A stretch of 64,000 nucleotides of DNA, taken from assembly GCF_007753265.1 (NCBI RefSeq), contig NZ_CP036349.1:5392862-5456861 (forward strand), in the 5' to 3' direction. A model generated the notes under the pieces. It was not told where the DNA came from. It did not search any database and saw only the letters and a program-made list of their open reading frames with translations. Below are positions 7,885 through 47,577 of this stretch, piece after piece. Within the stretch, counting starts at the first letter, position 1, and each line of letters begins with the position of its first letter. Position numbers and translations under genes: made by a program. Origin of the DNA: Botrimarina mediterranea (GTDB lineage: Bacteria; Planctomycetota; Planctomycetia; Pirellulales; Lacipirellulaceae).

Positions 7885-7978
7885 GGCGAGGCGCGCGACG
7901 TTAGTCGTCGGTGTGCGCCTGTTGTCGCGTTAGATCGAATGGTGCTTCCCACCGACGACTAACGTCGCGCGCCTCGCC
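7885..7978. repeat. Palindromic repeat, family B copy 1
   Basis: A perfect 29-bp inverted repeat, beginning GGCGAGGCGCGCGACGTTAG at 7885-7913, is mirrored at 7950-7978 with a 36-base loop. The same core (CGACGTTAGTCGTC) forms the inverted repeat at 47489-47577, so this is a dispersed family. It sits between the two chemoreceptors, just after the terminator. A further small hairpin, GGCGGCG...CGCCGCC type, follows near 8034-8056. The remaining bases to 8289 show no gene. Confidence 0.85.
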
Positions 7979-15809: not shown

Positions 15810-15843
15810 TCGGGGCTCGGGACGTTGACGCAAACAGAATCCC

Positions 15844-15928
15844 TGTAGGAGGCGTCTCCGACGCCGATTACGGCATCCACCCCAAAGCGGCGTGGTGCGC
15901 GAAATCGGCGTCGGCGACGCCTCCTACA
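15844..15928. repeat. Palindromic repeat, family A
   Basis: An 85-bp palindrome whose left arm begins TGTAGGAGGCGTCTCCGACG and ends with GCCGATTACG; the right arm mirrors it with two or three changes. The central loop contains CCACCCCAAAGCGGCGTGGT. Near-identical arms occur at 25877-25963 and 36359-36443. It sits between the divergent FAD oxidoreductase and coaX genes. Confidence 0.88.
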
Positions 15929-16005
15929 GAACAATGGCTTACTAGCCTAGTCGTCCCAGTGGGGGCAAGAAAGCGACCAGCCTGCCGTGGTATCGTAGGG
16001 GCATC

Positions 16006-16860
16006 GTGAGCACTACCGAAAACACCACTGGCCTCCTAGCCATCGACATCGGCAACAGCCGCGTCAAGCTCGGCTTGTTCGCCGAAGCGGCGTCGTCCTG
16101 CATCGCCGAGGCGCAAGGCGCGACGCTGCCGATCGCTGCGCCGCTCCTCCCCGAGCCCGCCGAGACGCTGACCGGTTCGCTCAGCGACCTCTGCGCGGGC
16201 GCTTTGCGGGATTGGCTTCATGCCATCGGCGATAGCCGGCCGCGCGTCGCTTTGGCGAGCGTGTCGCGCCCCGCCGAGGCGGCGATCGCGTCGCTCCTCG
16301 ATGGCTTCGTCGTGCAGCGACTGGCGAGCGAGACGGCGCCAATCGTCTTGCGAGTGGACGAGCCGTCGCGCATCGGCGTCGACCGCGTCATGGCCGCCAT
16401 CGCCGCCAATCGGTTGCGTCACGAGGGCCGGCCCGCAATCGTCATCGACGTTGGCACCGCGATCACTGTCGATCTCATCGCTACTGACGGAGCGCTCGAA
16501 GGCGGCGCCATCCTGCCGGGCCCAACGCTCGCCGCCCGCGCGCTCGCCGAGAAGACCGATCGACTTCCTGACATCCAGTTCGGCGACCTCGACGAATCAC
16601 CCGACGCGGTAGGCCGCTCCACCGAACCCGCGATCCGTGCCGGCGTCTTCTGGGGCGCGGTCGGCGCGATCCGCGAACTCATCGCCCGCCAACGCGACCG
16701 ACTCACCGCCCCGCCGCAGGTGTTCTTCACCGGCGGCGCGGCGCCGTCGATCGCGCGGCTGATCGGCGGCCCCGACCTGTCGGTGCGATACATCCCCCAC
16801 CTGACGCTCGCCGGCATCGCCATCGCCGCCGACACGTTGAAGGCAGAAGCCGCGTCGTGA
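16006..16860 (+). CDS. coaX: Type III pantothenate kinase
   Basis: The product has 284 residues. It phosphorylates pantothenate, the first step of coenzyme A synthesis; type III enzymes need a monovalent cation and are not feedback-inhibited. Seen: the ASKHA phosphate-1 motif LLAIDIGNSRVKLGLF at the N-terminus, RIGVDRVMAAIAA (about 124-136), IVIDVGTAITVDLI (about 145-158) and GGAILPGPTLAARAL (about 166-180). The start is GTG at 16006. The final GTGA overlaps the start of the next gene by four bases, so the two are translationally coupled, an arrangement I believe is common in planctomycetes. Confidence 0.94.
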   Translation: MSTTENTTGLLAIDIGNSRVKLGLFAEAASSCIAEAQGATLPIAAPLLPEPAETLTGSLSDLCAGALRDWLHAIGDSRPRVALASVSRPAEAAIASLLDGFVVQRLASETAPIVLRVDEPSRIGVDRVMAAIAANRLRHEGRPAIVIDVGTAITVDLIATDGALEGGAILPGPTLAARALAEKTDRLPDIQFGDLDESPDAVGRSTEPAIRAGVFWGAVGAIRELIARQRDRLTAPPQVFFTGGAAPSIARLIGGPDLSVRYIPHLTLAGIAIAADTLKAEAAS

Positions 16861-18092
16861 ACAACGACCCACCCCGGCAGTTTGAGCCGCGGCCGCCAGG
16901 AAGCGGCGTTCAAAGCGGCGCAGCAGCGCAAGTCCGCGTCCTTACGCCCGCCGGCCGCGGCGCGATCGCCGTCGTCGAAGTCGTCGGCGACAACGCCGCG
17001 ACGCTCGTCGATCACTGGTTCGAAGGATCGCAACCCCTTGCCGAAGCGCCGATCGACGCCATCCGCTTCGGCCGTTGGCGTCGCGCCGAGGACGACGCGC
17101 CGGGCGAGGAGCTCGTCGTCGTCCGCACCGCCGAAGACCGCGTCGAAGTCCACTGCCACGGCGGCGTCGCCGCGTCCGCAGCGATTATGGCGTCAATTGA
17201 GTCGTCGGCGCTAGCCGCGGGTGACGCCTGTCGAACGGCGCCTCACCCGCGGCTAGCGCCGACGGCTCACCTTGGTAGCGAACTACGTCTAGCGCTCTCG
17301 AACGCACCGACCGAGCGCGTCGCGGGGGTTCTGCTCGACCAACTCGGCGGGGCGCTCGAAGCCGCGTTGCATTCGGTGGTTCAACTCGTCCGTGAAGGCG
17401 AGACGGAACGCGCGATTGAACTCATCGACGACCTGCTAAGCCGCGAGCGGCTGGGCGTCCATCTGACGCGGCCGTGGCGTGTCGTGATTGCCGGCGCGCC
17501 GAACGTCGGCAAGAGCAGCCTGATCAACGCGCTGGTGGGTTACGACCGCGCGATCGTCTTCGACCAGCCCGGCACGACGCGCGACGTGGTCACCGCCGCG
17601 ACCGCCATCGGCGGCTGGCCGGCGACGCTCGCCGACACGGCCGGCGTCCGCGCGACCAACGACGCGCTCGAGGCCGCCGGCGTCGAGCTCGCGCTCGCGA
17701 CGCTCCGTTCGGCCGATATCGTCGTCGTCGCGCGCGAGGCCGCGACGTTCGATTCAGCGGAGTCGATCACGCTGCACGATTCACTGCTGAGAGAAGTTTC
17801 GCCCGACGCCGCGATCGTCGAAGTCGCCACCAAGGCCGACCTCGCGCCCGCGGGCGAGACGATCCCGCCCACCGTCGTTGCGACCGACGCCCCGCACGGC
17901 GTTGGGGTTCCTGAACTCCTCGCCGCCATCGAGCGAGCCATGGGCGTCGCCGAACCCGACCACGGCGTCGCCGTCGTCATCGGCCCGTGGCGTTACGACG
18001 TCTTGCGGCAGGTCCGCGCGGCGCTGGCGAATCTCGATGTTGCAGCGGCGCAGCAAGCGGCGCCCGCGCTGCTAGCCCCTGCGAAACCTTGA
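16857..18092 (+). CDS. MnmE/TrmE-like GTPase, divergent, with an in-frame palindromic insert
   Basis: The product has 411 residues. It has an MnmE-like N-domain (VRVLTPAGRGAIAVVEVVG, then VEVHCHGGVAASAAI) and a central G domain with G1 AGAPNVGKSS (about 213-222), a switch region with PGTTRDVV, G3 DTAG and G4 TKAD. True MnmE modifies wobble uridine of tRNAs with MnmG and ends in a C-(I/L/V)-G-K motif. Here the C-terminus is ALLAPAKP with no cysteine, so it cannot do the usual chemistry and is best called a TrmE-like paralogue. Residues about 115-138 are encoded by a 72-bp palindromic repeat (17198-17269). The GTG start overlaps the coaX stop. Confidence 0.85.
   Translation: MNNDPPRQFEPRPPGSGVQSGAAAQVRVLTPAGRGAIAVVEVVGDNAATLVDHWFEGSQPLAEAPIDAIRFGRWRRAEDDAPGEELVVVRTAEDRVEVHCHGGVAASAAIMASIESSALAAGDACRTAPHPRLAPTAHLGSELRLALSNAPTERVAGVLLDQLGGALEAALHSVVQLVREGETERAIELIDDLLSRERLGVHLTRPWRVVIAGAPNVGKSSLINALVGYDRAIVFDQPGTTRDVVTAATAIGGWPATLADTAGVRATNDALEAAGVELALATLRSADIVVVAREAATFDSAESITLHDSLLREVSPDAAIVEVATKADLAPAGETIPPTVVATDAPHGVGVPELLAAIERAMGVAEPDHGVAVVIGPWRYDVLRQVRAALANLDVAAAQQAAPALLAPAKP
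17198..17269. repeat. Palindromic repeat, family C, inside a coding region
   Basis: Arms 17198-17224 and 17243-17269 are inverted copies of TGAGTCGTCGGCGCTAGCCG plus seven further bases, with one mismatch and an 18-base loop. The total of 72 bp is exactly 24 codons, so the host reading frame is kept. A single arm of the same repeat (TGAGCCGTCGGCGCTAGCCG...) occurs at 23661-23683. Confidence 0.88.
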
Positions 18093-20626: not shown

Positions 20627-23600
20627 ATGCGTCGCCTGTTGCTAATATTTGCGCTCATTGCCGCTCCTGCCGACGCGCAGGAGGGGCAGCCGACGTTGGA
20701 CGACGTTATGGCGGACGAGGCGTCGCTGCGCGGCGTCGCGTTCGTCGATTCGCAACACGGGTGCGCCGTCGGCGATCATGGCGTCGCGCTTGTCACCAGC
20801 GATGGCGGGCAGCGTTGGCGCCGCGTGCCGACGCCGACCGACCAGCGCCTCGACGCGGTGACGTTCGTCGATAGCGAGCGTGGCTGGGCCGTTGGTGGCT
20901 CGGCGCGGCCTTACACGCACGAGTCGCGTGGCGTCGTGCTGGCGACCACCGACGGCGGGCGTAGCTGGGAGTCGATCGCCGCTGACATCGTGCCGCGGCT
21001 CCGCGCGGTGCGGTTCTTCGATCACGAGCACGGCGTCGCCGCGGGCGACGGCACGGCGAATAGCCCCTCAGGGCTTTACACGACCGACGACGGCGGTCGG
21101 CACTGGCGGCCCGTCCCCGGCGCCGCCGAACGCCAGTGGCTCGCCGCGGCGTTTGTCCAAGACCGCGTCGGCGAACCGGCCGGGGTCGTCGCCGGGTTGC
21201 GCGGCTCGTCGGCACGGCTCTCGGGTCGCGACGTGACGCTGTCGCTCGCCGCCGGTGATCGCCGCGGCGGTTATGGCGTCGCGCTGGTGAACGAGTCGCG
21301 GGGCTGGCTCGTCGGCGACGGCGCCCTGGTGCGTATCACCGACGACGGCGGTCAGGCGTGGGGCCCGCCGCCGAGCGAACTGCCGCCGTCACTCGCCGAC
21401 TGGTTCGACTGGCGCACGGTCGCCGCGCGTGGCGAGCGAGTTTGGATCGCTGGCTCACCGGGATCGATCGTCTTGCACTCGACCGACGCCGGCGCCACGT
21501 GGCGGCTGACGCGCACCGGCGTCACGACGCCGCTCACCGCGATCACGTTCATTGATGACCAGAACGGCTGGGCCGTTGGCGAGTTGGGCGTGATCCTGAC
21601 GACGCGCGACGGTGGCATGTCTTGGCGTGCACAGCGAGGCGCGTCGCGGCGCGCCGCCGCGGCCGTTGTCGTCGCGACCCCTCAAGAGCTCCCCGCCGAG
21701 ATCCTCGCCACCTACGCCGCGGGCGAAGGCTTCCGCACCGTCGTTGCGGCGCCGCTGCTGGCCGAGTCCGCCACCGTGGCGACGCCGATCGCCAACCGAC
21801 TGGGCGACGCCGCCACGTTGCTCGGCGCCGACGCGACGCGGCTCGGCTGGTCCACGCCGCTCGATCCGGCCGACGCCTCGCTGCCGCAAGCGGCCTTGCT
21901 CGATCGGCTCAACCGTCTGACCGACAACCGCGCGCGCGAGTTGCTCGTCTCCGAGCTGCGTAAGCTGCTGGTGACCTATCGACCCGAGGTCGTCGTCACC
22001 GCCGATCCGAATCGCACGACGACGGGCGCCGCCGCGTTGCTGGCCGACGCCGCCGCTGAAGCGATGACGCTCGCCGCCGAGACGCCGCCGATCGAGACCG
22101 GCATCGCGTCGTGGCGCGTCGAGCGTGTCGTTGGCGTCGCCGTCGACGACGGTTCGCCGCTCGCGCCGGGCGAGACGCGCCAAGGCACGGGCGACTTCTC
22201 CTCGCTCTTGGGCGCGACGCCCGCGCAGTGGCGCCGTGGGGCCCGGGGGTTGCTGGAGAGCGAGTACACGACCGCGCCCGCGGCGTACCGCTGGCGGACC
22301 CTCGCCGGCGATCCGGCGCTATCGACCCAACGGCCCGATCTCATGGCGGGCATCGCTCACGCGCGCGGCAGCGACGCCCGACGACACGTCGCGATGGCGC
22401 CCGCCAGCCAGCTCGATCAGCTGCGCCGCCTGGCTTCAAAGGAACGCAACCTCAAGCATCTGCTCGACCAGTCGAGCGGCGACGCCGCTTGGGCGGGACA
22501 GGTCGTGAACCTCACCGGCGGGCTCGACGCCGAAGCGGGCGCCGAACTGTTGCGGCAACTGGCCGAGGGGTATCGTCAAGCGGGCCGGCTCGAACTCGCC
22601 GCCGACACGCTCTACCTGCTCGCCCGGCGTTACCCCGAGGCGCCGCTCGCCGACGCGTCGCTCCTCTGGCTCTTGCAGTACTACGCCAGCAGCGAACGCG
22701 CGCACGCCGACGCCCGCGTCGTCGAAGCGAAGGACGCCCGACCGGAGACACTCGCCAACGTGCCAAGCGAACCCCGTGGCGCCGTCGCACTGGCGGCGCC
22801 GACGAAACCCGGCGCGCTATCGACCGAAGAACGCCAACAGCGCGCCGCAGCGCTTGCGGAGTTCCTGGGCCAAGCGCGGCCGGCGCTGCACGCCAAGCCC
22901 TCGATCCGCTTCGCCGAGGCGGCGACGCAACGTGCCCGGGGCTTCGGCGCCGACGCCGACCGCATCGCGCTGGTGCTCTCCAAGCAATCGATCGCCGACG
23001 ACTGGCGCCGCGCGGCCATGACCGAGCGATGGCTCGCGAAGCCCGAGGGGCTGCCGCCCGACAAGCCGCTCGCCAACTGCCGCTACACGCCACGGCGCCC
23101 GTTGCTCGACGGCCGCCTCGACGACCCGATGTGGACGCGGACGCAGCCGATCTCGCTCGCCGCGACGAGCGCCGCGAAGCCATCGGCGACGGTTCGCATC
23201 GTTCACGACGAGGAGTTCTTGTTCGTCGCGATCGAGGCCTCCTCATCGCAGGCGGCGTCGATCGACCCTCATGAAGCCCGCCCGCGCGACGCCGACCTGT
23301 CGCGCAGCGACCGCGTCACCCTCCGCATCGATGTCGATCGCGACTATGCCACGGCGTTTGAGCTCGCTATCGACGCGCGCGGGTGGACGAGCGATGCGAT
23401 CTGGGGCGACACGCACTGGAAGCCCACGTGGTGGGTCGCCGCCGAAGCCGACGACAAATCTTGGCGGGCCGAAGCGGCAATCCCGCTGGCGGAGCTGACC
23501 GACCCCAAGCACGTCGAGCGAGCGGCGTGGGCCGTCTCGCTACGACGAGAACGCCCCGGCGAACCAGCGACCACATGGCCCGCGGGCGGCGCCGCGGCGG

Positions 23601-23638
23601 ATTCGCCGGACGCGTTTGGGTTGTGGCTCTTTGATTGA
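20627..23638 (+). CDS. Secreted Ycf48-like propeller protein with degenerate PIG-L-like and CBM9-like domains
   Basis: The product has 1003 residues with a signal peptide (MRRLLLIFALIAAPADA). Residues about 25-345 hold six BNR/Ycf48-type blades with the pattern V-x-F-x-D-x-x-x-G-W-A-V-G ... T-x-D-G-G-x-x-W, as in the photosystem-II assembly factor Ycf48 and sialidase-like propellers. Residues about 345-520 resemble a PIG-L/LmbE deacetylase (LRKLLVTYRPEVVVTADPNR), but the metal-binding HPDD motif is replaced by TPQE, so it is probably inactive. A helical middle follows (about 590-800, TPR-like EGYRQAGRLELAADTLYLLA). The end (about 820-1003) looks like a CBM9-type domain (RPLLDGRLDDPMW, FLFVAIEAS). 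Domains two and four are inferred. Confidence 0.82.
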   Translation: MRRLLLIFALIAAPADAQEGQPTLDDVMADEASLRGVAFVDSQHGCAVGDHGVALVTSDGGQRWRRVPTPTDQRLDAVTFVDSERGWAVGGSARPYTHESRGVVLATTDGGRSWESIAADIVPRLRAVRFFDHEHGVAAGDGTANSPSGLYTTDDGGRHWRPVPGAAERQWLAAAFVQDRVGEPAGVVAGLRGSSARLSGRDVTLSLAAGDRRGGYGVALVNESRGWLVGDGALVRITDDGGQAWGPPPSELPPSLADWFDWRTVAARGERVWIAGSPGSIVLHSTDAGATWRLTRTGVTTPLTAITFIDDQNGWAVGELGVILTTRDGGMSWRAQRGASRRAAAAVVVATPQELPAEILATYAAGEGFRTVVAAPLLAESATVATPIANRLGDAATLLGADATRLGWSTPLDPADASLPQAALLDRLNRLTDNRARELLVSELRKLLVTYRPEVVVTADPNRTTTGAAALLADAAAEAMTLAAETPPIETGIASWRVERVVGVAVDDGSPLAPGETRQGTGDFSSLLGATPAQWRRGARGLLESEYTTAPAAYRWRTLAGDPALSTQRPDLMAGIAHARGSDARRHVAMAPASQLDQLRRLASKERNLKHLLDQSSGDAAWAGQVVNLTGGLDAEAGAELLRQLAEGYRQAGRLELAADTLYLLARRYPEAPLADASLLWLLQYYASSERAHADARVVEAKDARPETLANVPSEPRGAVALAAPTKPGALSTEERQQRAAALAEFLGQARPALHAKPSIRFAEAATQRARGFGADADRIALVLSKQSIADDWRRAAMTERWLAKPEGLPPDKPLANCRYTPRRPLLDGRLDDPMWTRTQPISLAATSAAKPSATVRIVHDEEFLFVAIEASSSQAASIDPHEARPRDADLSRSDRVTLRIDVDRDYATAFELAIDARGWTSDAIWGDTHWKPTWWVAAEADDKSWRAEAAIPLAELTDPKHVERAAWAVSLRRERPGEPATTWPAGGAAADSPDAFGLWLFD

Positions 23639-23660: not shown

Positions 23661-23683
23661 TGAGCCGTCGGCGCTAGCCGCGG
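23661..23683. repeat. Half copy of palindromic repeat family C
   Basis: One arm only, TGAGCCGTCGGCGCTAGCCG plus CGG, identical over most of its length to the arms of the repeat inside the MnmE-like gene at 17198-17269. It lies between two convergent genes. Confidence 0.75.
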
Positions 23684-23689
23684 ATTTGT

Positions 23690-24253
23690 TTACGGCGCGA
23701 GCTTCTTGAGCTTGCGCTGCAGAGTGCGGCGCGGGATGCCGAGGCGTTCGGCGGTGCGGGTGATGTTGCCGCCGCAGTCGGCGAGAACTTGCTGGATGTG
23801 GTTCCACTCCGCTTCGGCGAGGCTCGGCGTGTGGATGGCGGCCTCCTTGGCCGGGGGCGCCTCGTCGTCGCTGATCACACCGCTGCGGTGGAATGCTTCG
23901 AGCACCTGGTCGGCGTCGGCTGGTTTCGTGACGTAGTTCTCCGCGCCCTGGTGCAGCGCTTCGACGGCGTTGGCGATCGATCCGTAGCCGGTGAGGATTA
24001 CGGCCCGCACGTCGGGCGCGATCGTCTTCAACTCACGCAGAGTCTCCAATCCGCTGATGCCGGCCATTTTGAGGTCGAGCACCGCCAGCTCTGGCGGCTG
24101 CTCGCGCGCGAGTCGTAACGCCTCCTCACCGCTCGCCGCGACACGCACCACCAGCCCCCGCGAAGCCAACGCGCGGCCCATCCGCTCCCGCAGCAGCTCG
24201 TCGTCATCGACGAGCAGTAGCGATTTGCCGTTCAGCGGGAGGGGATCGTTCAT
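23690..24253 (-). CDS. RegA/ActR/PrrA-family response regulator
   Basis: The product has 187 residues, the typical short length of RegA-type regulators. The receiver domain (about 10-125) has the acidic pair in LLLVDDDELL, the phospho-Asp in LAVLDLKMAGISGLE and the Lys in NYVTKPAD. The C-terminal DNA-binding helix-turn-helix is of the Fis type and strongly RegA-like: HIQQVLADCGGNITRTAERL then GIPRRTLQRKLKK. In proteobacteria RegBA/PrrBA controls redox-responsive genes for respiration, nitrogen and carbon fixation. The cognate kinase lies upstream on the same strand, separated by 248 bases containing a long inverted repeat. Target genes are not shown here. Confidence 0.92.
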   Translation of the reverse strand: MNDPLPLNGKSLLLVDDDELLRERMGRALASRGLVVRVAASGEEALRLAREQPPELAVLDLKMAGISGLETLRELKTIAPDVRAVILTGYGSIANAVEALHQGAENYVTKPADADQVLEAFHRSGVISDDEAPPAKEAAIHTPSLAEAEWNHIQQVLADCGGNITRTAERLGIPRRTLQRKLKKLAP

Positions 24254-25845: not shown

Positions 25846-25876
25846 GTAGGAAATGGTAGCGGCTGCTTGCTCTGCT

Positions 25877-25963
25877 TGTGGGAGGCGTCTCCAGACGCCG
25901 ATTACGGTATCCATTCCGAAACGGCTTGGTGCGCGTCATCGGGGTCTGGAGACCCCTCCCACA
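25877..25963. repeat. Palindromic repeat, family A
   Basis: An 87-bp palindrome, left arm TGTGGGAGGCGTCTCCAGAC then GCCGATTACGGTATCCATT, mirrored at the right. It lies between nadD and the RegB-like kinase. The inside of the repeat provides a spurious ATG for the kinase ORF. Confidence 0.85.
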
Positions 25964-25976
25964 ACCAATGAAGCTT

Positions 25977-26543: not shown

Positions 26544-26545
26544 AG

Positions 26546-26637
26546 GAGAGGCTAGAGGCTAGAGGCTAGAGGCTAGAGGCTAGAGAATGCGGGCTTCCTA
26601 TCTTCTAGCCTCTAGCCTCTAGCCTCTAGCCTCTCCC
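26546..26637. repeat. Tandem heptamer repeat arranged as an inverted pair
   Basis: About five copies of GAGGCTA (26546-26585), then about 17 bases, then four to five copies of the complement TAGCCTC (26603-26637). The whole forms a large potential hairpin between divergent nadD and priA. It occupies nearly the entire 96-base spacer, so both promoters must lie in or next to it. There are no unique spacers, so it is not a CRISPR. Confidence 0.88.
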
Positions 26638-26639
26638 CT

Positions 26640-28946: not shown

Positions 28947-28988
28947 GGAGGGACGAGGGACCGGGGGCTAGGGACGAGGGGTTTGTCT

Positions 28989-29064
28989 CCGAGCCGCGAC
29001 CGTGAGGGAGTCGTCCAAGCGACCTTGCTATCGTCGGGACGACTCCCTCACGGTCGCGGCTCGG
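28989..29064. repeat. Palindromic repeat, family D
   Basis: A perfect 28-bp inverted repeat, CCGAGCCGCGACCGTGAGGG plus AGTCGTCC at 28989-29016 and its mirror at 29037-29064, with a 20-base loop. It is nested inside a looser inverted repeat made of GGGACGAGGG-type units (about 28950-28980 and 29070-29108). It fills the spacer between priA and the sensor kinase and may act as a terminator. Confidence 0.85.
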
Positions 29065-29154
29065 AAATGAACTCCCTCGTCCCCCGTCCCTAACCTCTCG
29101 TCCCTCCCTCTTTCTGCCGTCTGCCCACTGCCGTCTGCCTGCTACAATCCCCAC

Positions 29155-36342: not shown

Positions 36343-36358
36343 AAAAATTCTTCTATCT

Positions 36359-36443
36359 TGTAGGAGGCGTCTCCGACGCCGATTACGCGCAACAATCGGT
36401 ATTGGTATGGAGAACGTAATCGGCGTCGGAGACGCCTCCTACA
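36359..36443. repeat. Palindromic repeat, family A
   Basis: The best-preserved copy. The left arm TGTAGGAGGCGTCTCCGACG then CCGATTACG and the right arm are exact reverse complements. It follows the M56 stop by 17 bases and the AAAAAAATTC tract, in a convergent spacer. Confidence 0.9.
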
Positions 36444-36535
36444 AGAATCGATTTTGACGCGTTCCGGCTCCCCGTCATCAATGACGTTGGATCGCTCGGT
36501 GCGGATGATCGTTCGTTCGGTCCGCCCAGCGGACC

Positions 36536-47488: not shown

Positions 47489-47577
47489 GGCGAGCCGGCG
47501 ACGTTAGTCGTCCGTGTCAGATATCGCGAAAGGGCGTGTACCCGCTTCGCACCCACGACTAACGTCGCCGGCTCGCC
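47489..47577. repeat. Palindromic repeat, family B copy 2
   Basis: Left arm GGCGAGCCGGCGACGTTAGT then CGTCCGTG (47489-47516); the right arm 47550-47577 mirrors it with one or two mismatches. The core is shared with the copy at 7885-7978. It lies between convergent genes, and its last base is the first base of the downstream stop codon. Confidence 0.85.

Follow-up and report, generated by a model that had tools for sequence, protein, structure and literature searches.

A probable REPIN of a Y1 transposase-linked repeat family lies in frame within an MnmE-like GTPase gene of the planctomycete Botrimarina mediterranea

The region analyzed here (hereafter the window) is a stretch of 64,000 nucleotides from the genome of Botrimarina mediterranea (Planctomycetota; NCBI RefSeq assembly GCF_007753265.1, contig NZ_CP036349.1, positions 5,392,862 to 5,456,861). 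It contains a plus-strand gene (16857..18092) coding for a 411-aa MnmE-like GTPase paralogue with a TrmE_N domain (29-118) and a G domain (208-313), whose start overlaps by 4 bases the end of a type III pantothenate kinase gene on the same strand (16006..16860), a neighbor that lies outside the element described below. An earlier account made from the letters alone (hereafter the sequence-only reading) had termed this gene MnmE-like, and the TrmE_N and G domains agree with that; however, the product is a paralogue that scores 140 bits against the curated MnmE cut-off of 380, and the C-terminal CxGK motif is absent from it and from all 29 orthologues, such that neither the motif nor the score places it within MnmE proper. 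Relatives of the gene were recovered in all 60 genomes searched. A second protein, encoded at genome positions 1686599-1687942, matches the MnmE model over its full length, helical domain included, and has CIGK at its C-terminal end, and, with a score of 266 bits that is also below the cut-off, it is presumably, judging from its sequence, the working MnmE of this organism.

Between the VEVHCHGG and ALSNAPTERVAG segments of the MnmE-like gene lies a palindrome (17198-17269) whose two 30-nt arms (17198-17227 and 17240-17269) are 93% complementary and leave the reading frame of the 411-aa ORF open. Its RNA fold reaches -68.7 kcal/mol versus -35.5 +/- 3.4 for shuffled sequences (z -9.7), and the corresponding DNA fold has a z of -10.8. 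The sequence-only reading had reported both this in-frame palindrome and a recurrence of its arm in a spacer at 23661, and both observations were borne out, the latter as a single extragenic plus-strand copy at 23662..23686, between two convergent genes (20627-23638, plus strand; 23690-24253, minus strand). Matches to the 17-nt core of the arm, with up to 3 mismatches, number 6 in the window as against 0.95 +/- 0.85 expected. Delineated by sequence and the genome-wide consensus, the palindrome resolves into a doublet of a 25-nt unit, namely a forward unit (TGAGTCGTCGGCGCTAGCCGCGGGT; 17198..17222, plus strand) with one mismatch to the consensus, which is translated in the E(P/S)SALAAG frame, and a reverse unit (17245..17269, minus strand) that is the exact consensus and is translated on the plus strand in the HPRLAPTAH frame. 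The two 25-nt cores are separated by 22 nt (GACGCCTGTCGAACGGCGCCTC; 17223..17244, plus strand), which form the tip of the long hairpin.

The information content of the 25-nt REP unit (TGAGCCGTCGGCGCTAGCCGCGGGT) changes sharply at its edges, with a weaker tail (GGCGCCACGA) on the 3' side. The unit has TGAG as its 5' foot, then an outer stem (CCG/CGG), a single bulged base, an inner stem of 4 bp (CGGC/GCCG in the form found in the relative G028), and a GCTA loop. A single unit folded alone does no better than shuffled sequence, and the hairpin call hence relies on comparison among families. Across seven related REP families from the window genome and two relatives, all 28 cells of the inner stem are paired, with seven double changes, a value matched by none of 500 shuffles and lost in the slid controls; these families were picked for their mutual resemblance, and the covariation is to be read as support for the hairpin and not as its independent discovery. 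In the genome, which is a single contig of 5.87 Mb, the 25-mer is matched 96 times when up to 3 mismatches are allowed, and the reversed-pattern control not once. With up to 4 mismatches, 89 copies are found at 71 sites in the genome stretches examined, 18 of which are occupied by inverted pairs; the cores of almost all these pairs are 17-38 nt apart. Matches lacking the TGAGCC part (e.g., at 164727) were counted as chance coding matches. Six separate sites of the family are clustered within about 8 kb in one region of the genome (822564-834325). A short hairpin unit (20-40 nt) of high copy number and chiefly extragenic location, along with inverted pairing at short range, are features by which REPs and REPINs are defined, and the family shows them all.

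The unit is present in 15 of the 60 genomes searched and is abundant in the window genome, in the sister species G001 from the same genus, and in G013 from the same family. In G028, two copies situated 629 nt apart flank a gene for an IS200-like Y1 transposase (matching Pfam Y1_Tnp at E 1.2e-9); TGAGCCGACGGCGCTAGCCGCGGGT lies immediately upstream of this gene and a pair immediately downstream, the unit there differing by 1 mismatch from the window family. The closest Y1 transposase of the window genome (263443) is 59% identical to that of G028 and has doublets of a sister unit (TGAGCCGAACGCGCTAGCGTCGGGCG) on both sides, and G001 likewise has a Y1 transposase flanked by the sister unit in the same arrangement. 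A further defining feature of REP/REPIN systems, a RAYT bracketed by the units, is hence seen with 1 mismatch in G028 and with sister units in the window genome and G001. Inspection by eye of two of these transposases (L084 and L167, the latter from G028) revealed NHVH and YVLEGQ/YVREGQ (Y----Q) motifs. The CCGA of the RAYT-flanking units fits the published CnGA foot, whereas the window subfamily has CCGT. No transposase bracketed by this exact CCGT subfamily was found in the window genome; the other Y1 genes there have different repeats on both flanks, and the best PF01797 match (1556894) was rejected as the cognate transposase, being flanked by a different repeat (AAAGCCCCGGAGGGGCG). The cognate of the CCGT subfamily may have been lost, or a sister RAYT may act in trans; we infer mobilization of the window subfamily in trans by the sister transposase.

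The palindrome is accordingly very probably a REPIN, i.e., two inverted REP units of a family of the RAYT/TnpA-Y1 class 3 type, the likeness to class 3 being judged from motifs and not from the published class profile. The REP family itself would be non-autonomous miniature mobile DNA, a kind of element disseminated by domesticated transposases. We propose that the transposase would recognize the foot and hairpin on single-stranded DNA and mobilize the doublet in trans, the predicted single-stranded target of the two Y1 transposases (263443 and its G028 counterpart) being TGAGCCGTCGGCGCTAGCCGCGGGTG. Most landings would survive between genes, where the TGA or TAG of the unit would often come to serve as the stop codon of the upstream gene, and a rare landing in a stop-free frame of a flexible linker would be tolerated and become protein, as might have occurred in the MnmE-like GTPase, valS, and glcF.

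Several other repeats of comparable organization are present in the window. Three doublets (15843-15929, 25873-25967, and 36356-36446) belong to another family (CTGTAGGAGGCGTCTCCGACGCCGATTACG and variants), the sequence of which also brackets the Y1 transposase at genome position 939814. Doublets of further REP-like families occur at 7885-7978 and 47489-47577 (GCGCGACGTTAGTCGTCGGTG; GAGCCGGCGACGTTAGTCGTC), with the copy at 47489 showing a GAGCCG foot like that of the REP family studied here, and the doublet at 28978-29075 (CCGAGCCGCGACCGTGAGGGAGTCG) resembles the repeat around a Y1 transposase of G001 (L165). At 26545-26639, a GAGGCTA array is followed by its own inverted copy, forming a long simple-repeat hairpin beside a nadD-like gene.

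The three verified in-frame cases of the window genome, in the MnmE-like GTPase, valS, and glcF, all lie in variable linkers. The copy in the MnmE-like GTPase follows the TrmE_N domain, the one in ValS immediately precedes the anticodon-binding domain, and that in GlcF immediately precedes the cysteine-rich domain with the best match. In valS the REP pair (genome 719676-719743) gives the segment FALANLEGY-SPAASADGSPSTAKKEPSALAAG-, and the segment in glcF reads TREPSALAAGGATKR. Among the loci aligned, these valS and glcF segments are restricted to the window genome and G001; in G001 they are the only two in-gene sites out of 51. The valS gene of G001 retains a single complete unit together with what appears to be a leftover of the tail of the second, which suggests decay or partial loss of the latter. 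Between the two species, all 25 nt agree in the first valS unit and likewise in the glcF unit, with flanks at 75-85% identity, and this might be taken to mean that the in-gene copies are REPINs under selection, acting as a DNA or RNA hairpin or as a peptide, and not neutral passengers. We consider this unlikely: there are only two such cases, the same pattern would arise by re-insertion or by gene conversion among the roughly 90 copies, the extragenic copies shared by the two genomes are also near the consensus (0-3 differences), and the mnmE-like copy is not common to G001. The same disparity between units and flanks underlies the idea that selection, or conversion tied to a domesticated transposase, keeps the in-gene hairpins identical over speciation within essential coding sequence, with the peptide being carried along, and we regard this as quite improbable. 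The REP-encoded residues are most likely neutral linker. Only about a dozen of the 71 sites are common to the window genome and G001, suggesting turnover of the family.

By a codon-score ORF test run on genome stretches and not on a full annotation, 5/71 REP sites fall within genes, and 3 do so after inspection, as against 39-72% of random blocks in five genome stretches (binomial below 1e-9). The two sites set aside are 251970, where the opposite strand has a coding-like frame ending at the TGA of the repeat, and 5248754, where the open stretch downstream is only 46 codons. The stop codon of a coding-like ORF is supplied by 22 REP copies, in 17 of them via the TGA of the unit, versus 13/694 (1.9%) of control TGAG sites. 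The sequence-only reading had likened the invasion of coding sequence to the RPEs of Rickettsia. An RPE analogue would be a repeat specialized for in-frame residence in coding regions. In-frame insertions in three genes, a unit without stops in one forward and two reverse frames, and the retention of the valS and glcF copies across speciation are all consistent with such an analogue; however, the strong depletion of in-gene copies, the chiefly extragenic location of the family with many copies at gene ends, and its link to a Y1 transposase render it very improbable. Moreover, RPE-4 and RPE-6 have already been treated as CGTC-type REPs (PMC3733652), a foot that the window family does not have. 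The genome-wide search for further copies, which had been suggested together with the RPE comparison, with its about 90 copies at 71 sites and three verified in genes, instead describes a REP/REPIN family of the RAYT type.

The linker that hosts the palindrome, measured from the CHGG to the PTER motif, has 46 residues in the window protein and 36-54 (median 43) in the 29 orthologues. Without the palindrome it would have 22 residues, and exact removal of the 72 bp results in no orthologue-like linker; compared with the nearest orthologue (67% identical), the window protein gains a net 10 residues. The earlier claim that the repeat adds exactly 24 residues therefore fails. Given this net gain, the linker was already variable when the REPIN landed in it or took the place of part of it. 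About 42 bp may have gone missing at or near the insertion, or the linker may have been shortened beforehand, and both alternatives fit the data. The old linker would have lost about 14 codons, either along with the insertion or before it. In the G001 orthologue, GTGAGCGACGGCGCCGTCG was weighed as a possible degenerate REPIN and rejected, its residues aligning with the ordinary linker of other orthologues. As the sequence-only reading had anticipated, protein alignment found no copy of the REPIN in the three same-genus orthologues, and no orthologue was found to have the same residues on DNA lacking the palindrome. Given that absence, the MnmE-like copy would be either a younger insertion or one that has been lost in the same-genus orthologues. 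An origin of the palindrome as a normal feature of the coding sequence or mRNA, such as a repeat-rich linker or an attenuator, with no insertion involved, is hardly credible, since at the DNA level it reproduces almost exactly a repeat found throughout the genome and is missing from the three same-genus orthologues, even if the total of 46 residues falls inside the orthologue range.

On the REPIN interpretation, protein segments derived from REPINs occur in three proteins of a planctomycete (an MnmE-like GTPase, a tRNA synthetase, and a metabolic enzyme), and the repeat is linked with a Y1 transposase of the class 3 type. These cases offer a tractable set for asking how far miniature elements seed protein linkers and why those inside genes remain intact, two of them being exactly conserved. 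The sequence-only reading had held that such invasion is known from Rickettsia and is not known to be described in Planctomycetota. The dispersed in-frame repeat stands, but intragenic repeats have been published for several phyla (PMC3733652), and Planctomycetes have been reported to possess Y1 transposases of class 3 that show a Y----Q motif, a CnGA foot, and hairpins in high copy number (PMC6006769). The former include REP dimers inside genes encoding 20-30 residues, as in uvrA of the verrucomicrobium Opitutus terrae, a member of the PVC superphylum, and in tRNA synthetase genes of other species (PMC3733652). Our searches of the open-access literature turned up no description of REPs within genes of planctomycetes.

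Among the known systems, the window family shares with the REPINs, or REP doublets with their RAYT (PMC3116915; termed REPtrons in PMC3733652), short hairpin units that have a conserved 5' foot and occur as inverted pairs, many copies with an extragenic bias, and a bracketed Y1 gene. It differs from them in its foot, which is TGAG-CCGT/A and not GTAG, in its short hairpin with a GCTA loop, and in that the window subfamily is without a bracketed RAYT of its own in the window genome. With a unit that starts with TGAG and has CCGT or CCGA at the hairpin base, it falls outside the GTAG and CGTC super-families (PMC3733652). It is like the TnpA-Y1 class 3 group with "atypical secondary structures" (PMC6006769) in its presence in Planctomycetes, the NHVH and Y----Q motifs as read by eye, the hairpins on both sides of the transposase gene, the high copy number, and the CnGA-type CCGA of the RAYT-flanking units; the CCGT of the window subfamily, in place of CCGA, is the point of difference. 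The RPEs are likewise palindromic repeats in frame in genes, but their defining preferential in-frame residence in coding genes is the reverse of the depletion seen here, and the window repeat is chiefly extragenic, Y1-linked, and has another foot. The closest parallel to the in-gene copies is with the published intragenic REPs (PMC3733652), which are also in-frame dimers of 20-30 residues with tRNA synthetase targets and REP ends serving as stops. Those have GTAG or CGTC feet, whereas the window family has a foot of another type, is from a planctomycete, and adds the mnmE-like gene and glcF as new targets; in-gene REPs are thus a known phenomenon, here in a new bacterial group.
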